In this document: piece by piece, positions 3,043 to 48,877 of the stretch
How positions within the stretch are numbered: position 1 is the stretch's first letter
Layout of the letters: every line of letters begins with the position of its first letter
Made by a program: the position numbers and the translations under genes
NCBI GenBank assembly: GCA_900696575.1
Contig: CAADHD010000019.1
Span: forward strand, 1 to 48,877
From: an uncultured Bacteroidota bacterium
Lineage (GTDB): Bacteria > Bacteroidota > Bacteroidia > AKYH767-A > OLB10
DNA: 48,877 bases
Direction of reading: 5' to 3'
The notes under the pieces: generated by a model
Database searches by the model: none
Told to the model about the DNA's origin: nothing
The model's input: the letters and a program-made list of their open reading frames with translations, nothing else

Positions 3043-3045
3043 AGG

Positions 3046-4575: not shown

Positions 4576-4997
4576 TGCAATTAAAATGCTTTCCGGTGTG
4601 TAAATGCGCTTTTGATTTTGTGCTTGACTATTTGTATCCGCTTGAAGTAAAGATTAAGCCTATGTTCGGATGTCATGCCATTTATGTGGACAGCAAAATA
4701 ATGTTCATAACACGGAAGAAGCCTTCACATGAGAATTCCAACGGAATCTGGATTGCCACTTCATATGAGCATCATGGAAGCCTGAAGAAAGAATTTCCCT
4801 CCCTGCAAAGTGTCCATGTATTGAATGATGGAAAAGGAGAGACAGGTTGGAGGCTGCTTCATGAGGCTGTGGAAGATTTTGAGTCGTCAGCAATCAGACT
4901 TTGTGAATTAATCAAAGAAGGAGATCAGCGAATCGGAAAATTTCCTAAACGGAAAAAGAAGAAATCAGCTAAATCGTTTTTGAAGAAAGGCAAGTGA
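4575..4997 (+). CDS. TfoX-like N-terminal domain small protein
   Basis: Up to 140 residues. The stretch around residues 25-60 ('IKPMFGCHAIYVDSKIMFI') resembles the MFGG-type core of TfoX/Sxy N-terminal domains; the last 20 residues are a Lys/Arg-rich tail. Function is unknown; in Gammaproteobacteria full-length TfoX is a competence regulator, but there is no reason to transfer that role. The reading frame opens at GTG 4575, but that GTG overlaps a perfect -7 promoter element, so the true start may be the in-frame GTG at 4596 or the ATG of the MFG motif. Its 3' end overlaps the 3' end of hutH by 33 bases tail to tail. The codon pattern looks genuinely coding; the family call is moderate. Confidence 0.65.
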   Translation: MQLKCFPVCKCAFDFVLDYLYPLEVKIKPMFGCHAIYVDSKIMFITRKKPSHENSNGIWIATSYEHHGSLKKEFPSLQSVHVLNDGKGETGWRLLHEAVEDFESSAIRLCELIKEGDQRIGKFPKRKKKKSAKSFLKKGK

Positions 4998-17312: not shown

Positions 17313-17318
17313 CAATTT

Positions 17319-18395
17319 TCAATCATGAAAATTTTCAAGTAATAGAGCAGCAATTTTTTCACCGGCATGACCATCGCCATAAAAATTTTCGGTGAATGAT
17401 TTTTTCAATTTCATGGCAGATTCAAATGCTGCTGAAATTTTTCCTGCATCGGTTCCGGCCAGCAGGTTGTATCCGTTATCAACCAATTCAGTCCATTCGG
17501 TATCATTGCGCAGAGTTATGCAGAATTTTTTCATAAAGAAGGCTTCTTTCTGCAGTCCACCGCTGTCAGTCATCACCAGTCTGCAGTTTTTAAGCAGCGC
17601 CATCATTTCAAAATAGCCTGCCGGTTCAGTCAGATAAAACCTGCAGTCTATCATTTCGTTTTTAATGAGCGCTGCTGTGCGCGGATGAACAGGCATAACG
17701 ACAGGCATTTTCTGATGAATACCATTAAGTGCATCAATAAGTTTTTTCAGAACAGAGGATGTTGTGTTTTCCTGCCGGTGAATGGTGCAGAGGATGTATT
17801 CGTTAAGCTTTAGGTTTTCAATGAATGGATGTTTAGGGGGGATATTTTTTTCTGCATGAAGTACGGCATCATACATCACATCTCCGGTAAGAAACATTTT
17901 TGCGCCAGACATTTCTACGCTTTCTTTTTTAAGGTTGTTTATGGCTGAAGTTGTGGGGCAGAAAAGCATATCGGAAATTCGGTCGGTCAGCATGCGGTTG
18001 ATTTCTTCGGGCATAGCCATGTTGAAGCTGCGCAGGCCTGCCTCCACATGCGCTACTCTTACCTGTTGTTTTTTGGCAGCCAATGCTCCGGCCAATGTCG
18101 AATTGGTGTCGCCATAAACCAAAACGGTATCAGGTTTTTCTTTCAGAATTACTTCTTCAATTTTTTCAAGCATCCGGCCTGTCATCGCTCCATGGTTGAG
18201 GTTACTGATGTTTAAATGATAACCGGGATTTTTTATTAGTAATTGTCTGAAAAAAATTTCCGACATGTTATCATCAAAATGCTGGCCGGTATGAATCATC
18301 ACTTCCTTGGTGCCGGAATAATTTTGTAATGCTCTGCTTACTACGGCAGCTTTGATAAACTGCGGACGCGCGCCAACCACGCTAATTATTTTCAT
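17319..18395 (-). CDS. wecB: UDP-N-acetylglucosamine 2-epimerase (non-hydrolysing)
   Basis: 358 residues. Active-site residues known from E. coli WecB line up: R10 and K15 in 'GARPQFIKAAVV', D96 in 'VYGDTNST', E118 in 'HVEAGLRSFN', Glu in 'MPEEINR' (130-131), and the His in 'CTIHRQENT'. Reaction: UDP-GlcNAc to UDP-ManNAc for surface glycan synthesis. No UDP-ManNAc dehydrogenase (WecC) is beside it, so ManNAc itself may be used or the partner lies elsewhere. ATGA overlap (4 bases) with the upstream acyltransferase gene. Confidence 0.94.
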   Translation of the reverse strand: MKIISVVGARPQFIKAAVVSRALQNYSGTKEVMIHTGQHFDDNMSEIFFRQLLIKNPGYHLNISNLNHGAMTGRMLEKIEEVILKEKPDTVLVYGDTNSTLAGALAAKKQQVRVAHVEAGLRSFNMAMPEEINRMLTDRISDMLFCPTTSAINNLKKESVEMSGAKMFLTGDVMYDAVLHAEKNIPPKHPFIENLKLNEYILCTIHRQENTTSSVLKKLIDALNGIHQKMPVVMPVHPRTAALIKNEMIDCRFYLTEPAGYFEMMALLKNCRLVMTDSGGLQKEAFFMKKFCITLRNDTEWTELVDNGYNLLAGTDAGKISAAFESAMKLKKSFTENFYGDGHAGEKIAALLLENFHD

Positions 18396-18994
18396 GAGTT
18401 AGTTAGGTAATAATTGTTTCCTGTTTTCCATTCTTTCAATAGCTTTTCATCCAGCTCGCGTGTATCTCCTTTTACAGTTGCCGGATTGCCTGCTGCAATT
18501 TCAAAATCTTTTATGTCTGTGGTAACCACACTTCCGGCTCCTATAATGCAGCCTTTACCTATTTTAACACCGGGCAAAAGCACGCAGTGTGTACCTACAA
18601 ACGTGAATGCGCCAATGCTGACGGGAGCAATGTTATAGGCGGGCCTTTGCAGGGCATCAACTTCAATAAATTTTTTTCCAAGCAGCCTGATGGAATTGTG
18701 ACTGCTGTGGGTATAAATGCAGGTATGAGAAGCAAGGTGTACGCCTTCCTGAATCCGGATTCCACCAATGCCATCCAGCAGGCAGTAATGCCCAACCCAT
18801 ATATGGTCATCAAGCTGGATATTTTTTTTTGAAGAAAGAATGGCCGATGAGCTAACCCGTGTATTTTTTCTGAAAGCAAAAGGTCTACGGTTGAAGTATC
18901 CGTAAATCATAAATGCTTTGGGCCAGAAGCTGAATAGATTCATCAGCAGTGAAATGAAAATGCCGAGCGGTGAGAGGTAGAGTTTGCGAAGCAT
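18392..18994 (-). CDS. Hexapeptide-repeat (LbH) acyltransferase, WcaF-like
   Basis: 200 residues. From about residue 55 the protein shows left-handed beta-helix hexapeptide repeats ('IQLDDHIWVGHYCLLDGIGG', 'VSIGAFTFVGTHCVLLPGVK', 'IGKGCIIGAGSVV'), ending with 'AAGNPATVKGDTRELDE', the layout of acetyl-CoA-dependent sugar O-acetyltransferases. The N-terminus has a hydrophobic stretch (about 10-30). It probably acetylates a sugar of the surface glycan. N-acetylation of the 3-amino sugar made by the ketoisomerase/aminotransferase pair is a less likely option. Overlaps wecB by 4 bases; 4 bases downstream of the next glycosyltransferase. Confidence 0.82.
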   Translation of the reverse strand: MLRKLYLSPLGIFISLLMNLFSFWPKAFMIYGYFNRRPFAFRKNTRVSSSAILSSKKNIQLDDHIWVGHYCLLDGIGGIRIQEGVHLASHTCIYTHSSHNSIRLLGKKFIEVDALQRPAYNIAPVSIGAFTFVGTHCVLLPGVKIGKGCIIGAGSVVTTDIKDFEIAAGNPATVKGDTRELDEKLLKEWKTGNNYYLTNS

Positions 18995-18998
18995 GATT

Positions 18999-20153
18999 TC
19001 AGTTGGTATTTACTACCGTGTAATAATGGGTTGCATTGGCGGGTGAAAAATGCTTTGCGGCAGTGAGCGACTTTTTACGGTATTGTTCAATCATTTCAAA
19101 ACTGGCGGCAAGATGCATCAGAAAGCGGGTAATGGAGTCAACTGCATTCTCCGGAAAAATTTCTCCGCACCGGTATTGACGGATGATTTCACCCAGCCCT
19201 GATTCTTCGGGCCCAATAACCAGCAAGGCAGAACCTGCCGACATAGCAGTAAACGTTTTGCTGGGTACCGACACATCGGCTGCGCTGTTGCTTAGTGTGA
19301 TGACTGATACGTGCGCTGCCGCTAAAGCCTGTGGAAACATATCCGGATTCTGATAGGGCAAAAGTAAAACGTTGTTTAACTGTGCTTCCTCTTTTAGCTT
19401 TTGCAGCAGCTTTTTCTTTTCGCCCTCCCCAATAATCACAAATATTAATCTTGAATCATTTTTAAATTGCGCAGCAACGTTAATGAGCACTTCTACCGGA
19501 TGTGTTATACCGAGATTACCGGCATAAAGCACCACAAATTTATTTTCGAGCCGGTACGTTTTAATAAATTGGTTTTTTATCGGATCAATTAACTGCACAT
19601 ACGAAGTGTCAGCCCAGGGAGGAATAATGTTCACTGTTTTATTGGTATATGCAGCAAGGGATGTGGCCATTTTGTTTCCTAAGGTGATAAGCGAAGAGCA
19701 GTGGTTGAAAAGAGAAGTATTCCGTTTACTCCAAAATTTAATCAGCAAGGATGTTTTTCTGATGGTATTCATCCTTACCAAAACATCGGGATAGAGGTCC
19801 CAGATGAGCAGATGATATTTCTGTTTGCGCAGGCGGTAGAAGAATAATCCAAGAAAGGGAAGAAAGGGAGGTGTGCTAATCAATATCAGTTCGTGCCTGC
19901 GGCCATGTATCAAAATATAAAAGAAACAGCGGAGATGAAAATACAGTCCGGACAGGATTCTTCCGGAAAAACTTGAATTGTTATAACGGTTGAATAGTCT
20001 GGTTTTTACATTGCCATGCAAACCGGTATGTTGCTTTTCTATGCTACCGGTAAGTAAAACTACCGGATGCTCATGTTTTGCAAATTCATTTAGGATGTCA
20101 ATAGAAAGCTGCCGTGTTACCTGAACAATGTAAATATACTTTTTGGCTTCCAT
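18999..20153 (-). CDS. Glycosyltransferase family 4, WbuB-like
   Basis: 384 residues from the preferred ATG at 20153 ('MEAKKYIYIVQ'); the longer frame reaching 20225 would run across the divergent gene's start and its promoter. The N-terminal domain has 'LISTPPFLPFLGLFF' and 'HLLIWDLYPDVL', and the C-terminal domain 'VVLYAGNLGITHPVEVLI' and 'VPSKTFTAMSAGSALLVIGPEESGLGEII', the pattern of WbuB-type GT4 enzymes acting on amino sugars such as FucNAc. Likely role: adding a sugar to the lipid-linked repeat unit in the cytoplasm. Next gene downstream is the acyltransferase. Confidence 0.86.
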   Translation of the reverse strand: MEAKKYIYIVQVTRQLSIDILNEFAKHEHPVVLLTGSIEKQHTGLHGNVKTRLFNRYNNSSFSGRILSGLYFHLRCFFYILIHGRRHELILISTPPFLPFLGLFFYRLRKQKYHLLIWDLYPDVLVRMNTIRKTSLLIKFWSKRNTSLFNHCSSLITLGNKMATSLAAYTNKTVNIIPPWADTSYVQLIDPIKNQFIKTYRLENKFVVLYAGNLGITHPVEVLINVAAQFKNDSRLIFVIIGEGEKKKLLQKLKEEAQLNNVLLLPYQNPDMFPQALAAAHVSVITLSNSAADVSVPSKTFTAMSAGSALLVIGPEESGLGEIIRQYRCGEIFPENAVDSITRFLMHLAASFEMIEQYRKKSLTAAKHFSPANATHYYTVVNTN

Positions 20154-20173
20154 CAAACTGACCGTTACATTTG
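20142..20173 (+). promoter_or_regulatory. Strong Bacteroidota-type promoter (TTTG-N20-TACATTTG)
   Basis: TTTG at 20142-20145 and TACATTTG at 20166-20173 with a 20-base spacer fit the Bacteroidota -33/-7 consensus fully. The ATG of the membrane gene lies 43 bases after the -7 element. The -33 box falls inside the first codons of the divergent glycosyltransferase gene. Confidence 0.65.
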
Positions 20174-20216
20174 AAGGCGCTAAAAGTAGGCAACGTCTTA
20201 TTTTCCGGGCGCAAGT

Positions 20217-22010
20217 ATGCAACAAGCCATCAACAGAGTTTCTGCAGTAATTATATGGGTACTGTTCATTAGTATGATGGTAATTTTATTGTGGGGGATG
20301 AATAAAGGATTCGACCTTTCCGATGAAGGCTTTTCTCTGCTTTCGCTTACGGAAGGTCAGGAGCAGGGAATGGAAATTATGCCTGTTTATATCATACTTC
20401 AGAAATTTTTTTCAGTATTTAATCCCGGGGTAGTCTTTTATCGTTTGCTGCGGCTTGTTCTTCTGCTTGCCGGAACAGCCGTTTTTGTAACAGGACTGAT
20501 TTCCTGTTTACGAAAAATTCTTCCTGAAGTTGAATGGCCTGTTTTCGGCATTACTTATCCCGTTGCAATTTTATGCGGGTTAATCAATTACTCCCGGTTT
20601 TATCAAACTCTTTCTTACAATTCATTAACATTTATCATGATTTTGATTGCTGCCGGAATCTTTCTGAAAGGCCTGTGCCTTTCAGAAAGCGATTCTCAAA
20701 AAAGAAAAAATTTGTTTCTGCCGGCAACCGGGTTATCCTGCGGCATTCTCTTTCTGATCAAGTTGAGTTCAGGAATTCTTTTCTCTGCAGTATCCCTCCT
20801 TTTATTGTTTACGAACATTCCTAAAAAAGAAAAAATGAAATCTCTGGCGATAACGGTTATCTTGTTTTTTTCGGGGTTTTCGGTTGCACTTCTGCTTTTA
20901 TATGTTGCCGGTTCTTCACCGGTAGCATTTGCCGCTAATTTTATAAAAGCATCGTCCCTTTTGCCGGGACATCAGTTCTCCGTATTGCTTGAAGTTTATC
21001 GGGAGGATCTGCAAAAGAATTTTTTTGAAGTTATTTTATATCACAAGCTCTTTTTATTGATACCTGTTATTCTCTGGCTGCTGTACAGGTTTGCATACAC
21101 AAGAATGTTTGTTTCTGCATTTATTTTTAGCTGCCTGCTTCTGATGCAAAAATTTGTTAACGAAGGTTGGTATAAATCAGGAATGGAGGGGCTTTATTCG
21201 GCTTCCTTAGTTTACATCCTGCTGATGTGGTTTTTTTTTGTTTTTTTACTGATGGAATCGCTTGCCTTCTTGTTAAAGCTAAAGTACAGACCAACTTCGT
21301 TATACCTTCAGCGTTTATGGCCTGTTTATTTGTTTTTGACTTTTATTCCGTTTGTCGCTTCAGCGGGAACTAATAACCCGCTTTCCGTTCATGTTACCCA
21401 ATTTCTGTTTTTCTGGATGATTAATTTTCTGATTTTCATTCAAGTCATTTCAAATCTGAACAAACTGACCGGAATTATAAGACCGATGTTTGCTTTGATA
21501 TTGCTTTTTATGGTAAGCTCGCAATTTCTTTATGGATATATCCAATCGCCTTACAGATTAAATGATGGACTTATTCATCAGACATTTAAATTTTCAGCCG
21601 GCAAACGGGTTGCATCTCTGTTTCTAGATCAATCAGCCTGTAATTTTGTTAATGCCATTATGAGCATTCTGAAAGAACATGGTTATGATAAAGGAGACTA
21701 TCATGCCATTTCGCTTTACAGTTATCCCGGATTGGTATATCTGTCAGGTGCAACTTCGCCCGGTGCAGCCTGGTACTTTGGTGACGGATATGATGGAAAT
21801 GATAAGGCAAATTGTTTTATGATTTCGAAAACGAAAATTCCTGATTTGAAAAGGACTGTAATTTTTCTTGACGGCAATAGCAGAATATCAACAGAGTTTT
21901 CAGCGTGCCTGAAAACCAAAGGAATTTTATTTCCCGAAAATTATTTCTGCGCTGATTCTGTAATGCTTCCTGATTCTTCAGGCTATATGAAAATATACCT
22001 GCCAAACTGA
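20217..22010 (+). CDS. Polytopic membrane protein, GT-C glycosyltransferase-like
   Basis: 597 residues with about eleven to thirteen hydrophobic segments. The first extracytoplasmic loop carries 'FDLSDEGF' (D33, D36, E37), an acidic motif at the place where PMT/ArnT-type GT-C enzymes keep their catalytic Asp; the C-terminal 100 residues are a soluble extracytoplasmic region. Probable role: transfer of a sugar from a polyprenyl-phosphate donor in the periplasm. No named family could be assigned. It is the only plus-strand gene in the polysaccharide locus, has its own strong promoter, and faces the next gene tail to tail with a 2-base gap. Confidence 0.7.
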   Translation: MQQAINRVSAVIIWVLFISMMVILLWGMNKGFDLSDEGFSLLSLTEGQEQGMEIMPVYIILQKFFSVFNPGVVFYRLLRLVLLLAGTAVFVTGLISCLRKILPEVEWPVFGITYPVAILCGLINYSRFYQTLSYNSLTFIMILIAAGIFLKGLCLSESDSQKRKNLFLPATGLSCGILFLIKLSSGILFSAVSLLLLFTNIPKKEKMKSLAITVILFFSGFSVALLLLYVAGSSPVAFAANFIKASSLLPGHQFSVLLEVYREDLQKNFFEVILYHKLFLLIPVILWLLYRFAYTRMFVSAFIFSCLLLMQKFVNEGWYKSGMEGLYSASLVYILLMWFFFVFLLMESLAFLLKLKYRPTSLYLQRLWPVYLFLTFIPFVASAGTNNPLSVHVTQFLFFWMINFLIFIQVISNLNKLTGIIRPMFALILLFMVSSQFLYGYIQSPYRLNDGLIHQTFKFSAGKRVASLFLDQSACNFVNAIMSILKEHGYDKGDYHAISLYSYPGLVYLSGATSPGAAWYFGDGYDGNDKANCFMISKTKIPDLKRTVIFLDGNSRISTEFSACLKTKGILFPENYFCADSVMLPDSSGYMKIYLPN

Positions 22011-22012
22011 AG

Positions 22013-23038
22013 TTAATAGATTTGTTTTTGACTTTTTAAATAACGGATGATGATGTTTTCCGTTCGGAACAGATTATATCTGAAAATTTTCTTGTACCAG
22101 AACTTCAATGTGTCTTTCAGGCCTTCGTGTTTGATTAAGGTGTATTCAGGAACAGGAATTTTAAAAGTGGAATCAAGTTTTTTCAGCTCTGCTTCGGTCT
22201 GCATCAGTTCAAGAATGTAAGGAGCATAAATCTGAATGATGATGCTTTTGCCGGGATATCTCCAGCCCAAATCAACCAAACCTCCTTTAAAAAAACGGAC
22301 ATGATGAAAGTGATAAAACACCGCTTCAAATTTTTTTTCTGATGATTTTTCGGAAAGAAAAATTTTATTTCCTGACCTGTTAACCACGCTGTATTGTTCT
22401 GCATTCCATGGCGCTAATCCGCCACCTAAATGTTTAAGCACATGCACACTTTCAAATCGTGTTTCCCAGTCATCAAGATATTTCTGGTCGCCAAACTTAC
22501 CGTCTTCGTAACGGTTGTAGCACCATTCAAGACAACGGTCGCGCCACCAGTATAAAGCGTTCAATCCTTCAGAATTATTTTTAAAGGTGATGAACTGAAC
22601 ACAGAACCTGCCGGCTAATGTTGAACGGTTGAACTTTGGCGGAAAGCGATGCTCAGTCAGCAAAACAGAATTACATCCCATTTCTTCAAACAACACTTCA
22701 GGATTCTGATAGAAATACATATCGGCATCCAGATAAGTGCATGCCGGTTCATTGAATTTTTCAATTACATAAACAATAGTGGCCGGAGTACATGTCCAGC
22801 AGTATTCAGCAAGCGTACGGTCTGGCTTGACGGTTTTTAGTTTATCATCTTCAAAATCCTGAAGGGAAATAATGGTGGCAAACCGGAGATTTAACTTTTT
22901 CAGGAGTTGAAAGGCTTTATCATCAAACGCAAAAATGTAAAGGTGAAAATCAGTGCCTGTGTTTTCAAGTGAACGGTAAAGCAACAATCCGCGAGGCAGA
23001 TAAAACGAGTTGAACAGTGTGCAGAATACCTGTTTCAC
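22013..23038 (-). CDS. GT-A glycosyltransferase-like protein (DxD)
   Basis: 341 residues. The N-terminus 'FCTLFNSFYLPRGLLLYRSL' and the metal-binding D104-A-D106 in 'YLDADMYFY' indicate a GT-A nucleotide-sugar transferase, similar in layout to GT8 proteins; 'FGDQKYLDDW' and 'GGGLAPWN' further along are also seen in such enzymes. Cytoplasmic. Starts with GTG at 23038, 4 bases after the stop of the aminotransferase gene; no early ATG exists. Sugar donor unknown. Confidence 0.78.
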   Translation of the reverse strand: MKQVFCTLFNSFYLPRGLLLYRSLENTGTDFHLYIFAFDDKAFQLLKKLNLRFATIISLQDFEDDKLKTVKPDRTLAEYCWTCTPATIVYVIEKFNEPACTYLDADMYFYQNPEVLFEEMGCNSVLLTEHRFPPKFNRSTLAGRFCVQFITFKNNSEGLNALYWWRDRCLEWCYNRYEDGKFGDQKYLDDWETRFESVHVLKHLGGGLAPWNAEQYSVVNRSGNKIFLSEKSSEKKFEAVFYHFHHVRFFKGGLVDLGWRYPGKSIIIQIYAPYILELMQTEAELKKLDSTFKIPVPEYTLIKHEGLKDTLKFWYKKIFRYNLFRTENIIIRYLKSQKQIY

Positions 23039-23042
23039 TTAT

Positions 23043-24125
23043 TTAAAATTTATTCATGACTTCCACAACACGGTAAATGTCATCCTCAGTATGAATGAAG
23101 GAAACCGGAAGGCTTAAAACGGTTTTGTGAATTTCCTCGCTGATGGGATATTCTCCTTTAATCATTCCGTGCATGGCCTTCTGCCGGTGAGGAGGAACAG
23201 GATAGTGAACCTCTGTTTTGATATTATTTTTCAAAAGGTACTCGCGCAACTTATCGCGCTGCGGATGGCGAACCTGGTAAATGTGAAATACATCAAAACA
23301 ATCTTCTTCCTGTTTGGGTTTGATAAAATCATCCTTCAGTAGCTGCTGATAGATAGCGGCCAGTTTTCTTTTATGATGATTGATTTGATCTAACATTTTA
23401 AGTTTTACTGACAGAAAAGCGGCCTGCATTTCGTCCAATCGCGAGTTAACGCCAATAAGATCGTTGTAATATTTTTTTTCTGAGCCGTAATTGCGGAGCT
23501 TGCGGATGATGGCCGCCTGTTCCTCGGCTTTACATGTTACTGCACCGGCATCGCCCAAGGCGCCTAAATTTTTGGTAGGATAAAAACTGAAAGCTCCGAA
23601 GTCGCCAAAGGTACCTGTCATTTGTCCTTTGAATGTTGCTCCGTGCGATTGGGCACAGTCTTCAATCAGTTTTAAATTGTGTTTTCGGCACAGTTCCGTT
23701 ATTTTATCCATCCGGCAGGGCTTGCCATACAGATGAACAACAACAACGGCTTTTGTATTTGGAGTAAGGCAGCGTTCAATTTCTTCAACACTGATGTTGC
23801 ATGAATCAGCATAAGGTTCGGCAAGTAAGGGTTTGAGGCCACAGTGAAGAACGCTGAGTATTGTGGCAATGTAAGTGTTGGAAGGAACAATGACTTCCGT
23901 ACCGCGTGAAAAATTAAACGACTGCAGAGCCAGCGTAATGGCATCAAGGCCTGAGGCTACGCCAATACAATGCGGTGATTGAATGTATCCGGCAAATTCT
24001 TGTTCAAACTGACGGACATGATTCCCGAGAATAAACCAACCCGATTGCAGCACGCGGCTGTAGGCTTCTTCCAGTTCCTTCCTGAAAGGTGCATTTAATG
24101 CTGCAAGATTTTCGTAGTCAATCAT
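23043..24125 (-). CDS. Sugar 3-aminotransferase, DegT/DnrJ/EryC1/StrS family (FdtB/QdtB-like)
   Basis: 360 residues. The PLP lysine is K185 in 'SFYPTKNLGALGDAGAV'; 'EDCAQSHGA' (155-163) contains the PLP-pyridine Asp. Together with the overlapping upstream cupin (ATGA, 4 bases) this matches the FdtA-FdtB or QdtA-QdtB pairs that turn a dTDP-4-keto-6-deoxyhexose into dTDP-3-amino-3,6-dideoxy-galactose or -glucose. Which epimer is made depends on the ketoisomerase and cannot be read here. The N-acetyltransferase usually following (FdtC/QdtC) is not adjacent. Confidence 0.88.
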   Translation of the reverse strand: MIDYENLAALNAPFRKELEEAYSRVLQSGWFILGNHVRQFEQEFAGYIQSPHCIGVASGLDAITLALQSFNFSRGTEVIVPSNTYIATILSVLHCGLKPLLAEPYADSCNISVEEIERCLTPNTKAVVVVHLYGKPCRMDKITELCRKHNLKLIEDCAQSHGATFKGQMTGTFGDFGAFSFYPTKNLGALGDAGAVTCKAEEQAAIIRKLRNYGSEKKYYNDLIGVNSRLDEMQAAFLSVKLKMLDQINHHKRKLAAIYQQLLKDDFIKPKQEEDCFDVFHIYQVRHPQRDKLREYLLKNNIKTEVHYPVPPHRQKAMHGMIKGEYPISEEIHKTVLSLPVSFIHTEDDIYRVVEVMNKF

Positions 24126-39581: not shown

Positions 39582-40022
39582 ATGAGATTCACAGCCACAA
39601 TAACCTTGATTTTTACTTTATTGATTTTTCAGACTGTTCCACTTTCTGCACAGCAATCACAACTTACCCGTAAATACAGAGTGATAGCTGTAAAAAATGG
39701 GAACAGCGCTATAACCAGCATGTCGAACGAAACAGAGGTTACTCCGACCATGTATATTTATGTGCCGAATTCCTTTACGCCAAACGGAGATGGGCTGAAT
39801 GATTATTTCTATATTCAGGGAGAAGCAATTCAGACATTTAAAATGCAGGTATTCAATCGCTGGGGTGATTTGGTATTCGAATCGAATGATGTAAACAGCG
39901 GTTGGGATGGCAAGTTTAACGGTAATCTTGTTCCACAGGGCGCTTATGTTTATAAACTCTCTGCTTCAAGTGTAACTGGAAGACGAACCAATAAAGAAGG
40001 AACGATTAACGTACTGTTTTAA
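39582..40022 (+). CDS. Secreted stand-alone type B T9SS C-terminal domain protein
   Basis: 146 residues. Signal peptide at 1-23 ('PLSAQQ'). From residue 57 the protein is a gliding-motility-associated CHU_C domain: 'IYVPNSFTPNGDGLNDYFYI', 'MQVFNRWGDLVFES', 'GWDGKFNGNLVPQGAYVYKL', ending in 'GTINVLF'. This is the type B sorting domain that routes cargo through the type IX secretion system. Normally it sits at the end of large proteins; here almost nothing precedes it (about 33 residues of linker). It has its own terminator and lies beside two giant T9SS-type proteins. Either a minimal secreted protein or a carrier or anchor piece. Confidence 0.85.
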   Translation: MRFTATITLIFTLLIFQTVPLSAQQSQLTRKYRVIAVKNGNSAITSMSNETEVTPTMYIYVPNSFTPNGDGLNDYFYIQGEAIQTFKMQVFNRWGDLVFESNDVNSGWDGKFNGNLVPQGAYVYKLSASSVTGRRTNKEGTINVLF

Positions 40023-40134
40023 AAGATGATTTTCATGAGTATAATCATAATCTCCTTTCTTATTCGATACTTCAACAAAATAAAAAGATTCAGTTCAACA
40101 ACCTAAGTGCTGAATTAAAATAAACAAACATTGG

Positions 40135-40157
40135 ATGCCCTTAAAAGGGCATTTTTT
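40135..40157 (+). terminator. Intrinsic terminator after the CHU_C gene
   Basis: Perfect 8-bp hairpin ATGCCCTT / AAGGGCAT with an AA loop and a T run, 113 bases after the stop. The rest of the gap 40023-40345 holds the promoter of the next gene and nothing else recognisable. Confidence 0.85.
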
Positions 40158-40242
40158 GTTTGGGTAAATCCGACTAAAAAATTGGTAAACATTTTTAAAG
40201 CTTGGGTGAATTATAATTGTTAACAGCCTGTTTAAAATTTAA

Positions 40243-40345: not shown

Positions 40346-43300
40346 ATGAAAATCAATCAACCAACTAAACTGCTGCAATTTCTGCTTGCTTTACTAGTCC
40401 TGGCTTTATTTAGTGTAAAATTTATTTTAGGTCAAAATTATTTACCGCGTAGCTACTGGACATTCGATAATCCATCTAATGTCTTTTCTGATTCAACCGG
40501 CCTGTTCAATTTAGATCCTTTCTATTATCAATCCGGTTATTCTATAGGCAACAACACAGGCGGAACCGGGGTTGGAAAGTTTATGACTTTGAACAGCAGT
40601 TCCGGTTATATAAGAATGGGTTCTTTGCCAACAGATTCTGCGTTCACGATTGAATTTTTATTCAGGCCGGGCTACAATTTTAAAGAAACCCGGTTTTTCT
40701 ATAGGTTAGATGGTGCCATAACGGCAAAAATGAATTACCCGTACATAGTTTTCACTACTACACACCGCAGCAGCAGTGGGGCTGCCGTAAGTGATGACTT
40801 ATGGATTGATTTGAATGGGATTGGAAGAAAATCGTATGGGTATTACATTGATGGAAACTGGCATCACATGGTTTTCAAATTCAACAGTAATACCGGGGTT
40901 AAAGAGTTGTGGGTTGATGGACAATGCCCTTCAGGTTTTTCTAAAACAGTTTCGCCTACCGGGTACTTTGTAAATAATACTTCGGTTAACAGAGACCTCT
41001 TGCTTAATGCTACGATTAACTACATTCAATATCATGGCGATTATGACGAGATGGCTATTTACAGTTATGGCTTACCTGCCAACATGATCTATAAACACTA
41101 TCTTGATTTCATGAGTAATAAGCATTACTCATATCCAAACGCTGCCGTTACCGTACCTGTAGCATCGGCCATTACCGGGCCTATTGATTTAAACGAATTT
41201 CCTCCGGGCCATCCTAATGTTTCCGTGAGTGTTTTAGATCAGTTAAAAACTTTTCCGGTACCTCGTTATAAGCAAGGGCATTCCATGCATCCGAACTTCA
41301 ATTGGATTGATCCGCTTTATACCAGCAGTTATATGCAACCGGGAGTGAGTAATACACAGTCATCTGCCAACAGTGTTACACTGCAAACAGAGTTAGTAAC
41401 CAAGTTTAATTACATGCTTTATTTAGGGTATTCGGGCAGCGTATGGGGCGATGCTTGGATAACATTGGCAAATCAGAATCCTTCTTGGAAAGCAAGCACG
41501 GTAGTAGTAAGAGCACAACTTGGCAATCCATTGGTTTTTAGTCAAAGTCTTCCAAATGATCACTATCTTCAAAACAGCAGTGGCCAGTTTATTGATTTGA
41601 ATGGAAATGTTACTTCACAGAAAATATGGCGGCCAACAGCACCCACTTCTTCATACACCAATGATGGATTAGCCATGAGGAATAATCTGATCAACGCTTT
41701 TCAGAGCAGGTTAACACGACCCATTGACTTTGTGAATGAGAATGGAGAGGTTTTCCCGATGATTACCAATGCAGCTCTTGCCAAAGACCCGGTTGTTACT
41801 GCTGCTAAAAATGCATCCGGTTTGGGCTGGGAAGAGTTTCTGGCCATGAAATATAAAGATCATAGCACCCTTCCTTACCGCGATCAGTTTATGAACCTTT
41901 CTATTTTTAATGCAAATACCAAGTTTACTGAATACAGAATTGACGGTCATCGTACCTATCAGTTCTGGTACGAACAAACGCGTTTCATAAATACTCCAAT
42001 TAATGGAAAGAGATATTCCACTCTGGATTTCTATGTAAAGTTTCCTTACAACTGGAGGTATTGGTCAGGCCCCTGGCATGGCTGGCAATGGGTAGTTGAA
42101 TCGCGGAAATATGAAATGGCCCTTGGCGACAGCCTTTTCTCTCCGTTTGTTGCTGCCGGATGGGATCAGAATACTGAAACGCACGTAAGGCCTGCACAGT
42201 ATCTGGGTTTGCTCAAATGTCTCGGCATGATGGGCGCTGAGTTTTATTATCCTGCATACTTCAATTTACAGAGTTCTTATCAACCGCCCAACCCTCCTCC
42301 TTATGATCCTAAAGGATATATCTGGCAAAATATAGTCCCTTCTTATGCACAGGCAGTATCAAGCAGGTACGAAGATTTATTAAGAAACGGAACTATACTT
42401 GAAGGCGATGTTACTAATGATCCTTACAGCCCCCAATGGAATGCCTATAACTTCTGGACAGGAGATCCGCAAAAGATTGTTGTTGCCCGTAAAAGCAGAA
42501 CACAAAACCGGTATGCCATTACCGGCACCATTCAGCCAAACACTAATATGGCCGGCAATGCTGCTCTGGAAAGTACCGCCATAATAACTCTCGATGGTCA
42601 GCAACTTAAGTTTAAGGTCAGAAGACAAGGCAGCACCTATATTTATGACAAAACTGTTTCTTCTGCTCCTGTTTTTTATCAGCTTGACGAATGGCATGAT
42701 TACAAACATCCTTATTTATGGACTAAGGATCTCAATTATGAAGCAGAAAATTTCGAAACCGGCAACTCAGCTGTGCTAATAAAAACCTCTGTTCCTGCCG
42801 GAACCCCTGCCGGAGATTTTACCAACTTTACCAGTTACATCAGTTTTAATGCAGTGACGGATGTTACTTTTAATGTTGAACCGCGGGGAACTGCTACTGC
42901 TAACTATTACTTATGGGTTAGAGCCAGAAGCAAGAACGGAACTTCAACAGGCTTAACTGTGAAATTGAATGGTTTGAATCCTAAAACGATGGATTGTATT
43001 AAGGATACGGCCTGGATTTGGTACAGATTTGATAATAGTAATTCAGCTATTGTTTACAATGCACTTGCTTTACAGAATCATGTGCTGACAATTACCCCCA
43101 CGAACACCAACATTGAAATAGACAAAATTTCTCTTGTTACAAATTCCGGAGCTTTTTATAATAATAACGTTTCTCCTTGCTCCAATATGGCCAGCATAAC
43201 GGCTTCAGGCCCCACCTCATTTTGTCAGGGTGGCAATGTTACCCTTACGGCTAATTCAGGAAACTCCTACTTGTGGAGCAATGGCTCCACAATGCAGAGC

Positions 43301-45103
43301 ATCACTGTAAATACATCAGGTACATTTACCGTAACAGTAACTACAAATGGAGTTCCTGCAACTTCAAGCCCGGTAACTGTTTCAGTTAATCCTTTACCAA
43401 CGGCCTTCATCACACCCAATGGCGCTACAACCTTTTGTTCGGGAGGAAGTGTATTATTATCTTCCAACTCTGCACAGGGATATTTATGGACTCCGGGCGG
43501 ACAAACCAATCAATCAATTACTGTTACCAGTGCAGGATCTTATACCGTTCGGGTAACGGACAATAATGGATGTTCTAACACATCGGCAGCTGTAACGGTT
43601 ACGATAAACAGTCTTCCGGTTGCTTCTATTACGGCCGGTGGCCCCACAACCTTTTGTCAGGGTGGTTCTGTTGCCTTGACTTCTTCGGCAGGTTCGGCTT
43701 ATTTATGGAGTAATGGTGCAACATCGAAAAGTATATCGGCAACTGCATCAGGTAATTACTCAGTAAGAGTAACAGGAAGCAATGGTTGTTCAGCTACTTC
43801 TGCTGTCACTTCGGTTACTGTTAATCCACTGCCTGCGGCAAGTATTTCGGCTAACGGACCGCTAACTTTCAATCAGGGTGGAAGTGTGATTTTAACGGCT
43901 ACTGCAGGCGCTTCTTATCTATGGAATCCCGGAAACCAGACCACCCAATCTATCACTGTTACCACTTCAGGTACATTTACAGTGAGAGTTACCAATTCAA
44001 ACGGTTGTTCGGCCACCAGTTCACCGGTAACAGTAAATGTAACAACGGGCACCTCTTATGCCATTATTCCGGGAGGTCCTACAACGTTTTGTCAGGGAGG
44101 TAGTGTTACCTTAACTGTTCCCTCAGGTACTTCTTATTTATGGTCAACCGGGGCTACCACACAATCCATTGTAGCCACTACATCAGGTACATACAGCGCC
44201 ACGGTGTATTCAGGCAGCAACGGTGTACCGGCAGGTCCTATTACCGTTACGGTAAATCCATTACCAAATGCAACCATTACTGCTAGTGGCTCTACCACCA
44301 TTTGTTCCGGATCTTCTGTTCAGCTTACGGCCAGCAGCGGCCAGTCATACTTATGGACACCCGGTGGACAAACAACACAAACCATCTCGGTATCATCAGC
44401 AGGATCTTACTCCGTAAGGGTAACCAACAGTTATGGTTGTTCTGCTACTTCTGCAGCCACATTCGTTTCGGTCATTTCCTGTTCATCATGTCCTGTGCCC
44501 TCCGGTCTGTTCACCGATAACATTACTTCAAGCCAGGCGCGATTAAACTGGACACCCATGTCAGGCATCACAAACTATCAGGTAAAGATCATCACCGTTT
44601 CAACAGGCTACACTTATACTACCGGATTATTCAGCGGAACCTTGAGCAACCTCACTATTGCCGTTCAACCCAATACCAAATACCGTTGGAGAATCCGCTC
44701 CTATTGTAACGGAGTTTACAGCAACTGGTCAACCTATAGTTTGTTTACAACACTTCCATTGCGGCTTTCTGATCCTCAAACCGGTTTTGATGACATATCC
44801 TGGACAAGGACAGAAACCGATCCGGCTGATTTAACAGAGGAAATCTCAGACAATGGTTGGATCAATGTAATTCCTAATCCCGTACATCAGCGTTTTAGAA
44901 TTGAGTTTGATGCTGAGGAATCATCTACAGGTGTTTTGATAATCCGCGACCTGTCAGGCAGAGTTGTTTTAAGCACTTCGCTCGAGATAGCAGAATTCTT
45001 CAATTCAAAAGAAGTATTACTGCCTGAATGTTCGCCAGGAGTCTATTCCATTCATATTATAAGCAACAGTAAGACATACATAGCTAGAATTCTGGTTAGA
45101 TAA
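40346..45103 (+). CDS. Giant T9SS-secreted multidomain protein 1 (LamG, unknown central domain, Ig repeats, FN3, type A tail)
   Basis: 1585 residues from the ATG at 40346, chosen because the signal peptide (about 1-30, 'FILGQN') follows it and a promoter lies before it. Domains in order: LamG/concanavalin-like (about 32-258); a large conserved central domain (about 270-790) I do not recognise, with N464-E465-N466-G467-E468, 'RIDGHR', 'SGPWHGW', 'FVAAGWD', 'VRPAQYLGLLK' and 'GAEFYY' (E632); a carbohydrate-binding-like beta domain (about 797-940); six Ig-like repeats of about 72 residues (948-1378); FN3 (about 1380-1470); and a type A T9SS sorting tail (about 1505-1585, 'NPVHQRFRIEF' to 'ARILVR'). 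Probably exported and surface-bound or released, acting on a polysaccharide. Enzyme activity is inferred only. A paralogue follows about 400 bases downstream. Confidence 0.9.
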   Translation: MKINQPTKLLQFLLALLVLALFSVKFILGQNYLPRSYWTFDNPSNVFSDSTGLFNLDPFYYQSGYSIGNNTGGTGVGKFMTLNSSSGYIRMGSLPTDSAFTIEFLFRPGYNFKETRFFYRLDGAITAKMNYPYIVFTTTHRSSSGAAVSDDLWIDLNGIGRKSYGYYIDGNWHHMVFKFNSNTGVKELWVDGQCPSGFSKTVSPTGYFVNNTSVNRDLLLNATINYIQYHGDYDEMAIYSYGLPANMIYKHYLDFMSNKHYSYPNAAVTVPVASAITGPIDLNEFPPGHPNVSVSVLDQLKTFPVPRYKQGHSMHPNFNWIDPLYTSSYMQPGVSNTQSSANSVTLQTELVTKFNYMLYLGYSGSVWGDAWITLANQNPSWKASTVVVRAQLGNPLVFSQSLPNDHYLQNSSGQFIDLNGNVTSQKIWRPTAPTSSYTNDGLAMRNNLINAFQSRLTRPIDFVNENGEVFPMITNAALAKDPVVTAAKNASGLGWEEFLAMKYKDHSTLPYRDQFMNLSIFNANTKFTEYRIDGHRTYQFWYEQTRFINTPINGKRYSTLDFYVKFPYNWRYWSGPWHGWQWVVESRKYEMALGDSLFSPFVAAGWDQNTETHVRPAQYLGLLKCLGMMGAEFYYPAYFNLQSSYQPPNPPPYDPKGYIWQNIVPSYAQAVSSRYEDLLRNGTILEGDVTNDPYSPQWNAYNFWTGDPQKIVVARKSRTQNRYAITGTIQPNTNMAGNAALESTAIITLDGQQLKFKVRRQGSTYIYDKTVSSAPVFYQLDEWHDYKHPYLWTKDLNYEAENFETGNSAVLIKTSVPAGTPAGDFTNFTSYISFNAVTDVTFNVEPRGTATANYYLWVRARSKNGTSTGLTVKLNGLNPKTMDCIKDTAWIWYRFDNSNSAIVYNALALQNHVLTITPTNTNIEIDKISLVTNSGAFYNNNVSPCSNMASITASGPTSFCQGGNVTLTANSGNSYLWSNGSTMQSITVNTSGTFTVTVTTNGVPATSSPVTVSVNPLPTAFITPNGATTFCSGGSVLLSSNSAQGYLWTPGGQTNQSITVTSAGSYTVRVTDNNGCSNTSAAVTVTINSLPVASITAGGPTTFCQGGSVALTSSAGSAYLWSNGATSKSISATASGNYSVRVTGSNGCSATSAVTSVTVNPLPAASISANGPLTFNQGGSVILTATAGASYLWNPGNQTTQSITVTTSGTFTVRVTNSNGCSATSSPVTVNVTTGTSYAIIPGGPTTFCQGGSVTLTVPSGTSYLWSTGATTQSIVATTSGTYSATVYSGSNGVPAGPITVTVNPLPNATITASGSTTICSGSSVQLTASSGQSYLWTPGGQTTQTISVSSAGSYSVRVTNSYGCSATSAATFVSVISCSSCPVPSGLFTDNITSSQARLNWTPMSGITNYQVKIITVSTGYTYTTGLFSGTLSNLTIAVQPNTKYRWRIRSYCNGVYSNWSTYSLFTTLPLRLSDPQTGFDDISWTRTETDPADLTEEISDNGWINVIPNPVHQRFRIEFDAEESSTGVLIIRDLSGRVVLSTSLEIAEFFNSKEVLLPECSPGVYSIHIISNSKTYIARILVR
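43188..44480 (+). repeat. Six tandem Ig-like coding repeats of about 216 bases
   Basis: In-frame repeats within protein 1, each with the pattern 'TTFCQGGSVTLT...SYLW(S/T)xG...QSITV...G(S/T)(F/Y)xVRVT...NGCSATS'. Cys pairing varies: repeats 2, 3 and 6 keep both Cys; repeats 1 and 5 lack the second (NGV); repeat 4 lacks the first (FNQGG). Similar units restart in protein 2 at about 48385. Confidence 0.9.
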
Positions 45104-45122
45104 GCTACAATTGAAAGTTAAG

Positions 45123-45157
45123 CGGGTGCTGATTATTCAGCACCCGTTTTCTTTTTT
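45123..45157 (+). terminator. Intrinsic terminator after giant protein 1
   Basis: Perfect 10-bp hairpin CGGGTGCTGA / TCAGCACCCG with a TTAT loop, followed by T-rich tail, 19 bases after the stop. Confidence 0.92.
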
Positions 45158-45500
45158 AAGGGAGAATGGTATAATATCTTTAACTAAATTAAAATTTATT
45201 ACAGTAGCAAAAACCGGGCTCCACCCTCATTGATGTTCCTCACGGCTGTGTTTTAGTAATGGCAACCTGATTAAATTCCGTTGCTGAGCAAAATTTCTTG
45301 CAAATGAAATGTTGGAGGATAAATAGTAAACTACCCGACTGAAATTGCCGTTTAATTGGTCAGTACTTTCATTTAATAATTATGACCACCACTATGAAGC
45401 CGGCACCATTAAGTTTTCAAATGCAATGCCAGTTGCAGGTTTTGAAAGAAAAATGAAAGACACCATTAAATTTTGAAGAAAATAGACACACATAAGCAAC
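45158..45500. other. Intergenic region between the two giant paralogues
   Basis: About 340 bases with no convincing gene. Near the right end a short direct repeat is visible (CACCATTAAGTTTTCAAA near 45407 and CACCATTAAATTTTGAAG near 45460). The second copy contains AAATTTTG, a partial -7 element about 25 bases before the next ATG, so the promoter of the second giant gene may lie here. No tRNA or terminator besides the one listed. Confidence 0.5.
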
Positions 45501-48500
45501 ATGAAACAACATTACAAAACGCAACTCATGAACATGGAAACCATCCTGAGAGCAGGGCTGACCATCAGTTTTCTGTTAGCACTTCTTTTTGCAGCTTCCC
45601 TGAAAGTAGCATTCAGTCAGCAGGTAATGACTCCGGTAAGGTATTACACCTTCAACGGTTCTAATCCGTCAGCAGATTCTGTCAGTTCAACTTCGTTAAA
45701 TTTTACGGCCTACGGTGGAACAGTTACTCACACAGCTAACGGAGGTATTGTTGGCAAGTATGTAAGTTTATCTACTGCCGGTGGGCTGATAGACGGTGGC
45801 ACTCTTAATCTGGATACTGCCCTTACTATTGAGTTTCTTTTCCGCAGCGGTAGCAACCCGGGTAACAATATCAATAACACTACTTTTTTCAGAAGGGGTG
45901 ACGGGTATTTTGATATTCAGTTTGAATATCCGCAGTTTCGGTTCAGAACTTATCATAAATCAAATGCTGGTTCGTATGTAAGTGACGAAATGCTTGTAGT
46001 TTTAAATGGCGTTGGCCGTAAATCGTATGGCTATTATACTGACGGCAACTGGCATCATCTTGTTTTCCGTTTCAGCGGAACGTCAGGCAAAAAAGAAATC
46101 TGGGTGGATGGACAATGTCCTGACGGTTTCAGTAAAACTGTTACTACCGGATATTTTGATAATCCATCGGGAAACAGTAAAACATTCTGGATAAGCCACA
46201 TGGTGAATTATCAGAAAATTTTAGGCGATTTGGATGAGTTGGCTGTTTACAACCGCGGTATTCCGGCATCGCTTATTTACAAACATTATTTACAGGCTCA
46301 GCAAGGGTTGCCATACAGCTTTGTTAATGATTATACAGGAACCATACCCGGAGCTTCTCCGGTTACTGCCGGTATTGATATCAACGAATTTCCAATCGGG
46401 CATCCCAACCCTACACAATCGGCCACCGAGCAATTAAGAACATATCCGGTTCCCCGTTTTAAACCGGGACATACATTATATCCCAACTTTCAATGGATAG
46501 ATCCGCATTACTTAGCCAGCCGGCTTCAACCCGGTGTTTCTGATGCAACCGCCATTCAGAACAGCCTGGATATTCAAACCGAGCTTGCCAGGAATTATAA
46601 CTACATGCTGTACATAGGGGGTGATGGAAATTTTAATACAGCCTGGAAGAATTTAGCCAATCAGAATCCACAGTGGAAAGTGGGGATGATTATTCTGCGC
46701 GCCCAGATACCTACAAGCCTCTGGAGTCAGAATCATCCCAACGATCATTACCTGCAAAATTCAAGCGGCCAGTTTCTGAATGCCAACGGTACTGTTCAGA
46801 ATGGAAAATTCTGGAGGCCAACCGCTCCTATTTCTTCTTATTCTTCTGATGGAACAACCATGAAAAGCAGGGTACAAAATGCTATTTCCGGGTTGAACCG
46901 TCAATTGGATTTAATCAACGAAAATGCAGAAGTTTTCTACTTGTATCAGAACAATGCCATGGCACTTGATCCTGTGGTTACTGCTGCAAAGAATGCTTCC
47001 GGTTTGGGCTGGCAGGAATTTTTAGCTAAGAAAGCATCAGAAAACCAGATTGATTACCGTAATACTGTGATGAGTCTTCCGCAGTTGGCCAACACCGCTT
47101 TTACAGAGTATAGAATAGATGGCCACCGCGACTGGAATTTCCGCTATGAATACATGCGCGATATTATGACACCTATCAACGGAAGAAAATATGCTACTTC
47201 TGATTTTTATGTTCGCTGGCCGAATAACTGGAAAACCTGGAGCGGCCCCTGGCACGGTTTAAAATGGATTGTGGATTCCCGTCATTATGAAATTCAGGCC
47301 GGTGATAAATTGTTCTCTCCTTTCGTAGCTGCAGGATGGGATGCCAATCCCGAAAATGATGTTCGGCCTGCACAATGGCTGGGTCTGCTGAAACTTCTCG
47401 GAATTTTCGGTGCCGAATTTTTCTATGCAGGTTATTTTAATGAAGCAGCCAGTTACATGCCTCCCAACCCTCCGCCTAACGATCCTAAAGGTTATGCATG
47501 GCAGGCTGCCATGCCCGGTTATGCACAGGCCGTTACCAGCCGTTACGAAGACATTCTTAAAGACGGCAACATCCTTCAGGGTGATATGATGAATGATTAT
47601 GTAAGCCCTACTTCACCGGGATACCAGTTCTCTGCCGGTGATGTCCGCAAGGTGGTGATGGTTCGTAAAAAAGATAATGTTAACCTTTATGCCATCAGCG
47701 GAACCATTCAGCCTAATTCCAATATGATTGGAAATGCCGAACCGGAAGGAGATGCATCCATTAGCCTGGCAGGTCAGAATCTGAAATTTAAAATACGCAG
47801 GCAGGGCAGCACTTATATTTATGACAACACCAATACTTCAGCTCCTGTCTTTTATCAGTTAGATGGATGGCATGAAGCTTCGCATCCTTCGCGATGGTCG
47901 GCTGATTTTAGTATTGAAGCAGAATTGTATGACAATACCAATACTTCGTTCAACCGCAAAACCACTGTGCCTGCAGGAACTTCTGCCGGTGATTACAGAA
48001 ACTTTACTACCTGTATTACCTATCCTGACAATCAGACTTCTTTTACTCCGCTGGAATATAATTTCACGCCACGTGTTTCTCAGCAAAGCACTTTATACTT
48101 CTGGGTACGTGCCCGTTCACGTGGCGGACAAACCGGAATGGCCGTTTCTGTTGATAATGGCGCTGCAAAAAACATTGGCTGTATCAGCGATACTAACTGG
48201 GTATGGTACCGTTTAGACGGATGTACTCAGCAACCGATCTCATTTACTTCTCTCTCCATTGCCAATCATGTTTTGCGAATTACTCCTTCTAATAATAAAC
48301 TGGAGATTGATAAAATTGCTTTGGTTGTGAGTGCCAATACCGGCTTCAATCCTCAGGGTTCAGCTTGCTCCTCCGGTGGTTCGGCTACTATAACGGCCAA
48401 TGGCTCTACTTCTTTCTGTCAGGGAGGAAGTGTAACGCTTACTGCCTCTGCAGGTACTTCTTATGTTTGGTCAAACGGTGCAACTACTCAATCTATTAAT

Positions 48501-48877
48501 GTTACCACTTCAGGCAACTATGTGGTTACGGTGCAAAACGGCAGTTCCTGTGCAGGAGTTTCTTCGCCTGTAACAGTTTCGGTTTCTTCTGCTCCCAATG
48601 CTACTATTACTCCCAATGGTTCTACTACTTTCTGTCAGGGCCAAAGTGTAATGCTTACCGCTTCATCAGGCAGCTCTTATTTATGGACTCCGGGCGGGCA
48701 AACCACTCAATCCATTACCGTATCCTCAGCAGGAAACTATTCTGTACGCGTAAGCAACAGCAGCGGATGCTCGGCCACCTCATCACCAACAACTGTAACC
48801 GTAAATTCAATTCCTTCGGCCACCATCAGCGCCAGCGGTGCTACCACCTTTTGCCAGGGCGGCAGCGTAACGCTTAC
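45501..48877 (+). CDS. Giant secreted multidomain protein 2, paralogue of protein 1 (3' end beyond window)
   Basis: Open frame of 1125 codons running off the window. Signal peptide at about 1-40 ('LLALLFAASLKVAFSQ'); Met 10 or 12 are alternative starts. Same order as protein 1: LamG-like (about 45-270, sharing 'GRKSYGYY-DGNWHH' and 'EIWVDGQCPDGFSKTV'), central domain with N473-E474-N475-A476-E477, 'RIDGHRDW', 'SGPWHG', 'FVAAGWD', 'VRPAQWLGLLK' and 'GAEFFYAGYFN' (E639), a binding-like domain (about 795-955), and Ig-like repeats from about residue 962 (two full, a third cut). The 3' FN3 and sorting tail are expected but not visible. Base usage matches protein 1, so this is an ordinary duplication. 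Confidence 0.9.
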   Translation, partial: MKQHYKTQLMNMETILRAGLTISFLLALLFAASLKVAFSQQVMTPVRYYTFNGSNPSADSVSSTSLNFTAYGGTVTHTANGGIVGKYVSLSTAGGLIDGGTLNLDTALTIEFLFRSGSNPGNNINNTTFFRRGDGYFDIQFEYPQFRFRTYHKSNAGSYVSDEMLVVLNGVGRKSYGYYTDGNWHHLVFRFSGTSGKKEIWVDGQCPDGFSKTVTTGYFDNPSGNSKTFWISHMVNYQKILGDLDELAVYNRGIPASLIYKHYLQAQQGLPYSFVNDYTGTIPGASPVTAGIDINEFPIGHPNPTQSATEQLRTYPVPRFKPGHTLYPNFQWIDPHYLASRLQPGVSDATAIQNSLDIQTELARNYNYMLYIGGDGNFNTAWKNLANQNPQWKVGMIILRAQIPTSLWSQNHPNDHYLQNSSGQFLNANGTVQNGKFWRPTAPISSYSSDGTTMKSRVQNAISGLNRQLDLINENAEVFYLYQNNAMALDPVVTAAKNASGLGWQEFLAKKASENQIDYRNTVMSLPQLANTAFTEYRIDGHRDWNFRYEYMRDIMTPINGRKYATSDFYVRWPNNWKTWSGPWHGLKWIVDSRHYEIQAGDKLFSPFVAAGWDANPENDVRPAQWLGLLKLLGIFGAEFFYAGYFNEAASYMPPNPPPNDPKGYAWQAAMPGYAQAVTSRYEDILKDGNILQGDMMNDYVSPTSPGYQFSAGDVRKVVMVRKKDNVNLYAISGTIQPNSNMIGNAEPEGDASISLAGQNLKFKIRRQGSTYIYDNTNTSAPVFYQLDGWHEASHPSRWSADFSIEAELYDNTNTSFNRKTTVPAGTSAGDYRNFTTCITYPDNQTSFTPLEYNFTPRVSQQSTLYFWVRARSRGGQTGMAVSVDNGAAKNIGCISDTNWVWYRLDGCTQQPISFTSLSIANHVLRITPSNNKLEIDKIALVVSANTGFNPQGSACSSGGSATITANGSTSFCQGGSVTLTASAGTSYVWSNGATTQSINVTTSGNYVVTVQNGSSCAGVSSPVTVSVSSAPNATITPNGSTTFCQGQSVMLTASSGSSYLWTPGGQTTQSITVSSAGNYSVRVSNSSGCSATSSPTTVTVNSIPSATISASGATTFCQGGSVTL
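48385..48877 (+). repeat. Ig-like coding repeats of giant protein 2 (array continues past window)
   Basis: Two full and one partial copy of the same 72-residue unit as in protein 1 ('TTFCQGxSVMLTASSGSSYLW'). Both complete copies keep two Cys residues (FCQ...SSC or SGC), unlike half of the copies in protein 1. Confidence 0.85.

Follow-up and report, generated by a model that had tools for sequence, protein, structure and literature searches.

The 48,877-nt window considered here, that is, the whole stretch of DNA analyzed from an uncultured Bacteroidota bacterium, ends in two giant genes which lie in tandem on the + strand and are paralogues. Their products share one domain order: signal peptide, LamG-like domain, a core of approximately 520 residues, a second beta-sandwich domain, and immunoglobulin (Ig)/PKD-type repeats. 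Paralogue 1 additionally ends in a weak fn3-like match and a type IX secretion system (T9SS) sorting tail. The subject of this report is the core, which defines a sequence family of its own. The features are as follows:

40346–45103, + strand, giant paralogue 1: 1585 aa from the ATG at 40346, stop codon 45101–45103
45501–48877, + strand, giant paralogue 2: 1125 aa seen, frame still open at 48875
40436–41119, + strand, LamG/lectin-like jelly-roll of paralogue 1, residues approximately 31–258 (predicted model, pLDDT 91.5)
41150–42718, + strand, conserved core of paralogue 1, residues 269–791: predicted (beta/alpha)8 barrel (to about residue 673) plus C-terminal beta-sandwich
46341–47888, + strand, core of paralogue 2: 60% identical, E477 corresponding to E468
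42719–43150, + strand, beta-sandwich binding-like domain, residues approximately 792–935 (model strands, pLDDT mostly above 90)
43180–44497 (range approximate), + strand, Ig/PKD-type repeats (Pfam: PKD, four stretches; Ig_2, two stretches, below cut-off)
44498–44737, + strand, weak fn3-like domain (Pfam E 0.0057, below the Pfam cut-off)
44870–45097, + strand, T9SS type A sorting tail (Por_Secre_tail, E 3.2e-8, over cut-off)

An earlier first-pass annotation, made from the letters of the sequence, had proposed two neighbouring genes of common architecture, and this is borne out by the open reading frames (ORFs) and by the identity between the paralogues domain by domain, which by paralogue 1 residues is 47% over 20–269, 60% over 270–789 and 43% over 790–929. 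With the first core as query the second is matched at E 1.8e-209. The frame of ORF 1 is open already from a TTG at 40217, which offers a longer alternative start. Only two bases remain between 48875 and the end of the window, and the flank-extended locus of the second core stops at 48877 (4037 versus 4548 bases); the gene for paralogue 2 is therefore cut off by the end of the contig. Paralogue 1 bears the marks of T9SS cargo, namely a Por_Secre_tail match over cut-off and an N-terminal hydrophobic stretch (signal peptide, by eye), and in the source genome the T9SS tail model finds 150 or more matches at E <= 0.001 (150 of 206 candidates scored). The pattern of the domain at residues 792–935 we take to resemble CBM6/CBM35.

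The core matched no family in Pfam, NCBIfam or the PDB sequences, as had been suggested for this central domain, and its motif blocks lie where they had been read: NENGE 464/NENAE 473, RIDGHR 531/538, SGPWHG 574/581, FVAAGWD 601/608, PNPPP 648/655, and others among the blocks looked for. Fourteen Pfam families gave a hit to a single member each out of 35 [best BT_MCC_alpha, E 2.4e-4], and three NCBIfam families to one or two [best E 0.013]; both sets were taken as chance. The family profile, run against all PDB chain sequences at HMMER sensitivity, gave a single match [E 0.78] which was not PgaB, and neither this search nor Pfam, the latter among 35 members, disclosed a relation of the GH153/PgaB type. 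Membership of glycoside hydrolase (GH) family GH42 was likewise rejected by sequence: there is no GH42 match (PF02449) in 35 members, and hhalign gave a probability of 0.5% against an alignment of nine GH42 proteins. Viral structure models yielded one match at E 1e-3, A0A6J5RG31 from an uncultured Caudovirales phage, with a TM score of 0.26. Among the papers returned by searches of the open-access PubMed Central (PMC) literature, no title or abstract beginning names such a family, which is no proof of absence. By "undescribed" or "new" we mean absent from the libraries searched (Pfam, NCBIfam, PDB sequences), and CAZy may already list the family.

Forty-five loci in other genomes encode the core, mostly in metagenome-assembled genomes of Bacteroidota; by record titles, single loci are labelled Planctomycetota, Paceibacterota and Nomurabacteria. 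They were found by a pattern scan of a species-genome collection, and since such scans use short peptide patterns (two here, three for the phage scan below) the locus counts are lower bounds. The core is present in 21 of the 24 genomes of the source's own family, in none of 18 from other families of its order, in 2 of 395 drawn across the phylum (the source genome included), and, in one family which we read as Chitinophagaceae, in 12 of the 394 genomes sampled. Loci which can be named are Flavihumibacter fluminis RY-1 (L061), Flavipsychrobacter (L062), Agriterribacter humi YJ03 (L063) and a Chitinophagaceae bacterium (L068). The homologues on contigs labelled Nomurabacteria and Paceibacterota are L076 and L058, the former ending in a segment which presumably is a peptidoglycan-binding domain, to judge from its pattern.

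The 44-row alignment comprises 42 loci and the two window cores; it omits L069, a fragment, as well as L074 and L075, in which the match is not covered by one unbroken frame. Models and profiles were built from 27, 35 and 33 rows. Conservation was read from 55 sequences: the 44 rows, three phage copies, and eight of the 12 Chitinophagaceae-type copies, the other four being taken as L061, L062, L063 and L068. In a tree of 52 cores, the deep branches of which are unresolved and the phage rows long, paralogue 1 joins L033 and L032, and paralogue 2 joins L025 and L024, both groupings being strongly supported. The tandem duplication thus predates the split of at least two genera. Six copies from exopolysaccharide (EPS) clusters form one group (100/100).

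A triosephosphate isomerase (TIM)-barrel fold had been anticipated in the first-pass annotation, and structure prediction agrees with it. The AlphaFold model of the core from 27 sequences (pLDDT 85.1, pTM 0.88) and model m10e599e45651 of the core plus flanking domains from 33 sequences (pLDDT 91.5, pTM 0.92) show, in DSSP order, eight strands alternating with helices, which makes a complete (beta/alpha)8 barrel; additional helices follow strand 4, and a beta-sandwich comes after the barrel. The nearest solved structures are mostly glycoside hydrolases. Foldseek placed alpha-L-fucosidase first among PDB entries [6tvk, E 6.6e-6], while the top VIA match was GH42 [Z 15.2, rmsd 5.2, 382 aligned, 10% identity], followed by an Ignavibacterium beta-1,2-glucosyltransferase [Z 14.1, 381 aligned], fucosidase 6tvk [13.2], GH164 [13.2] and PgaB/GH153 [12.6]. 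These values exceed the Z of 7–8 quoted with the tool for models lacking a clear match. The LamG-like domain is closest to domain 4 of AbnA, a GH43 arabinanase domain [5hon, VIA Z 18.8, rmsd 2.7, 191 aligned, 22% identity]. It also matches other lectin-like jelly rolls, including the binding domains of clostridial neurotoxins, from which no toxin link is drawn.

Four positions of the core bear on its possible active site (counts from the 55 sequences):

41747–41749, + strand, E468: loop just after strand 4; E in 55/55, the only invariant acidic residue of the barrel
41738–41740, + strand, E465: last residue of strand 4; E 44, D 8, and C, S and N one each
42032–42034, + strand, Y563: end of strand 6; invariant in 55/55
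42239–42241, + strand, E632: in strand 8; E 37, D 16, and R and I one each

The invariant residues of the barrel include E468, Y563, K624, G630 and P430, while D440 is D in 53 sequences and E in one; the cyanophage row is distant, and its single-residue assignments are less sure. We might suggest E468 as the candidate general acid/base.

The first-pass annotation had instead proposed a retaining hydrolase whose acid/base would be E465 and whose nucleophile would be E632, and this would place the core in clan GH-A. There is something to be said for this: the best Z is to GH42, with GH164 following, both of clan GH-A (excerpt of PMC7105311); E465 ends strand 4, with extra helices thereafter as in GH42/GH164; the E465–E632 spacing of 165–167 resembles the 158 of GH42 entry 8ibs (E160/E318); and most sequences have an acidic residue at either position (52 and 53 of 55). 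Both, however, swap E for D, and in some phage and cellular copies another residue takes their place. The clan carries its acid/base at the end of strand 4; here E465, at the strand end, varies, and E468, three residues on, does not. According to the same excerpt the nucleophile of GH42 and GH164 is on strand 7 and their acid/base on strand 4. By DSSP numbering E632 is in strand 8, and residues 596–615 around strand 7 hold no column which is acidic in at least 80% of the sequences. Because of these two facts the proposed pair is most improbable. A single invariant acid near strand 4 may rather recall PgaB, whose catalytic acid is probably D474 and which has no counterpart to the second catalytic residue of DspB (in the part of PMC5933820 consulted).

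One might also imagine that the barrel is catalytically dead and serves as a large glycan-binding scaffold, the giants being surface adhesins or matrix proteins which hold the cell's own polysaccharide. Two binding-like domains flank the core, the window proteins have long Ig/PKD repeats, the classical second carboxylate is not conserved, and T9SS giants are often adhesins. Against this, E468, Y563 and K624 are unchanged in 55/55 sequences, including a cyanophage copy with 22% identity, and the repeats, found in phage contig L100, are absent from the six Chitinophagaceae-type copies looked at, from phage contig L099 and from the cyanophage copy. We consider a dead scaffold unlikely, and the genomic setting argues in the same direction.

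In all 12 Chitinophagaceae-type genomes with a copy the gene lies among glycosyltransferase genes, and no more than two genes separate it from a Wzy homologue (blastp to Pfam-typed proteins of L060 and L061). The nearest Wzy_C match by the Pfam model is 926–2651 bases from the family gene in 12/12; eight of these matches pass the Pfam cut-off and four (G776, G666, G483, G480) are below it. Each genome has two to five Wzy_C matches (43 in the 12, of which 12 are below cut-off), and the chance of a random place lying that near is about 0.2–0.8% per genome. The 12 genomes represent five genera, and the six copies tested one clade, so that these are not 12 independent events. L060 has a similar cluster context, its Wzy_C match being likewise below cut-off. 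In L061 an 873-residue homologue is located inside a run of glycosyltransferase genes, surrounded, according to Pfam, by a flippase, Wzy_C, glycosyltransferase families, an asparagine synthase-like gene, GDP-mannose dehydratase and an epimerase. A 786-aa gene at the start of this cluster, to which Pfam gave only a weak nucleotide-binding match, is presumably a Wzc-type kinase. The copies of L060–L064 and L068 end 123–154 residues after the core, too short a stretch to hold a T9SS tail in addition to the CBM-like domain.

Three close relatives in the source's own family lie near such genes: flippase and glycosyltransferase genes are no more than 9 kb away in L035 and L038, and L035 has two Wzy_C genes besides; L037 has neighbours in common with L038 (by clustering). 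The window itself contains a small polysaccharide cluster at 16092–24125 (Wzy_C/O-antigen ligase, UDP-GlcNAc 2-epimerase, hexapeptide transferase, group 1 glycosyltransferase, DegT aminotransferase), at a distance of some 16 kb from the giants. The consulted part of PMC5933820 calls it an emerging trend that EPS operons encode glycan-cutting enzymes, which are often found there according to an excerpt of PMC9075953. Such positions being known to hold glycan-cutting enzymes (PMC5933820, same part) speaks further against the dead scaffold.

Phages carry the core as well. On IMG/VR contig L099 a 962-aa homologue immediately precedes the genes for tail sheath, tail tube and baseplate hub. Just upstream of it, at 2653–3816, is a gene with an apparent Sec-type signal peptide (by eye), which the depolymerase-like gene also has; exported proteins within a tail module are unusual. 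L100 encodes a 1333-aa homologue with Ig-type repeats. INPHARED yielded one matching record, Dolichospermum phage Dfl-JY23 (22% over 91% of the query, E 1e-6), whose 511-aa protein consists of the core only and is annotated as hypothetical. Against a profile of the 44 cellular cores it scored 90 bits, and 0/200 shuffles matched. Its gene follows directly upon those for baseplate wedge, tail protein, tail fiber and tail collar and is the last on its strand. No further phage relatives were found in IMG/VR and INPHARED, and a plasmid search was likewise without result.

An enzyme near Wzy need not hydrolyse. The core might be a polysaccharide lyase, or a transglycosylase which joins, caps or anchors the EPS of the neighbouring Wzy pathway, and the consistency of its position near Wzy would suit this. 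A beta-1,2-glucosyltransferase is among its best structural matches (the Ignavibacterium enzyme above), and a lyase could make use of the invariant Y563 where strand 6 ends. The top structural matches listed are, however, mostly hydrolases, and a position among phage tail genes fits degradation better than transfer. We regard this as rather improbable, somewhat more so than the dead scaffold.

The reading we favour, at a probability of roughly 60%, is that the core forms the catalytic part of a secreted enzyme which depolymerizes polysaccharide; most probably this is a glycoside hydrolase whose family none of the searched libraries contains. We prefer it because of the barrel fold, the EPS-cluster and phage tail contexts, the invariance of E468, and the match of the LamG-like domain to an arabinanase domain. 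Catalysis would then proceed with E468 as general acid/base and by hydrolysis rather than elimination or transfer. The core probably cuts within the chain of a bacterial surface polysaccharide or EPS. Beside Wzy the enzyme may trim or release the producer's own EPS; beside phage tail genes it may breach the EPS or sheath of the host. Of the polysaccharide-active enzyme first envisaged, the barrel fold and the polysaccharide-cluster and phage tail contexts lend support to the general idea, while the catalytic pair fell away.

Several observations weigh against a depolymerase. TIM barrels are common, and a fold held in common shows no function; sequence homology of the core to any enzyme family was not detectable by profile, Pfam, NCBIfam or hhalign searches. 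The barrel has no second invariant carboxylate among the 55 sequences, as would be expected of a classical two-carboxylate hydrolase. Many copies in the source's own family sit in a conserved block, lpxD-lpxC-lpxA-ABC-coiled coil-CHU_C-giant(s), and not in an EPS cluster, and among two nearby genes each of L056, L057, L059, L067 and L071 Pfam found a polysaccharide-biosynthesis gene in 0/10. Lastly, the L100 contig has a single PHROG match (an exonuclease) among three proteins scanned.

Comparison with known systems places the core beside several without equating it with any. It resembles the GH42 beta-galactosidases and GH164 beta-mannosidases of clan GH-A in that beta-rich domains come after the (beta/alpha)8 barrel and additional helices after strand 4, which in most sequences of the core ends in a Glu. 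Unlike them it has no conserved carboxylate around strand 7, is joined to LamG and CBM-like modules and occurs in EPS-cluster and phage tail settings; identity in structural alignments is 7–11%, with no profile-profile signal to the nine GH42 sequences. To the C-terminal domain of PgaB (GH153) there is the structural match mentioned, but no sequence relation was found by the searches above, and the core differs by its invariant Glu, by a beta-sandwich at its C-terminal end, and by its place in clusters with Wzx/Wzy-type genes. PslG of the psl cluster is likewise a glycosyl hydrolase encoded among the genes for one exopolysaccharide (excerpt of PMC9075953). Unlike PslG, which has been studied as an intracellular enzyme, the giants are exported and carry lectin-like modules. 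PslG belongs to GH39. As with phage tail depolymerases, the phage copies are encoded in, or at the end of, tail/baseplate modules. Known tail depolymerases are mostly beta-helix trimers; here we have a barrel domain common also to cellular EPS clusters.

Just upstream of the giants is one further gene:

39582–40022, + strand, 146-aa protein: CHU_C T9SS sorting domain and signal peptide, little else

A free sorting domain without cargo is odd. A homologue of this protein adjoins the giants, or is one gene away, in 18/45 loci. Another gene family, near the giants in 11/45 loci (by clustering; 14083–15282 in L036), we take to be NamZ/DUF1343 (GH171). Terminator-like hairpins at 40133–40154 and 45120–45149 would make the giants separate units; against this, the region has nine such hairpins, close to the number in shuffles (6.2, sd 2.8). 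Elsewhere in the window (4965–6449) an aromatic amino acid lyase [PF00221, E 1.3e-190] is encoded near squalene/phytoene synthase and amine oxidoreductase genes, which could be pigment synthesis.

The family is real, patchy outside the source's own family, of predicted barrel fold, and linked by two kinds of context to surface polysaccharide. A wider proposal, which we hold tentatively and at somewhat less than even odds, is that of one undescribed family of barrel-type depolymerases, possibly a new clan, in which a single invariant Glu after strand 4 and an invariant Tyr on strand 6 would replace the carboxylate pair, and which would be used by bacteria (in Wzy-type EPS clusters and T9SS giants) and by phages (in a tail module breaching bacterial EPS). 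The reason for glycan-cutting enzymes in EPS clusters is an open question according to the excerpt of PMC9075953, and enzymes which cut a given EPS are wanted as biofilm tools. The family is tied to specific Wzy clusters in F. fluminis RY-1 and A. humi YJ03, so that the presumed substrate would be obtainable from the same strain, and the 511-aa cyanophage copy, which is independent and consists of the core only, lends itself to expression and structural work.

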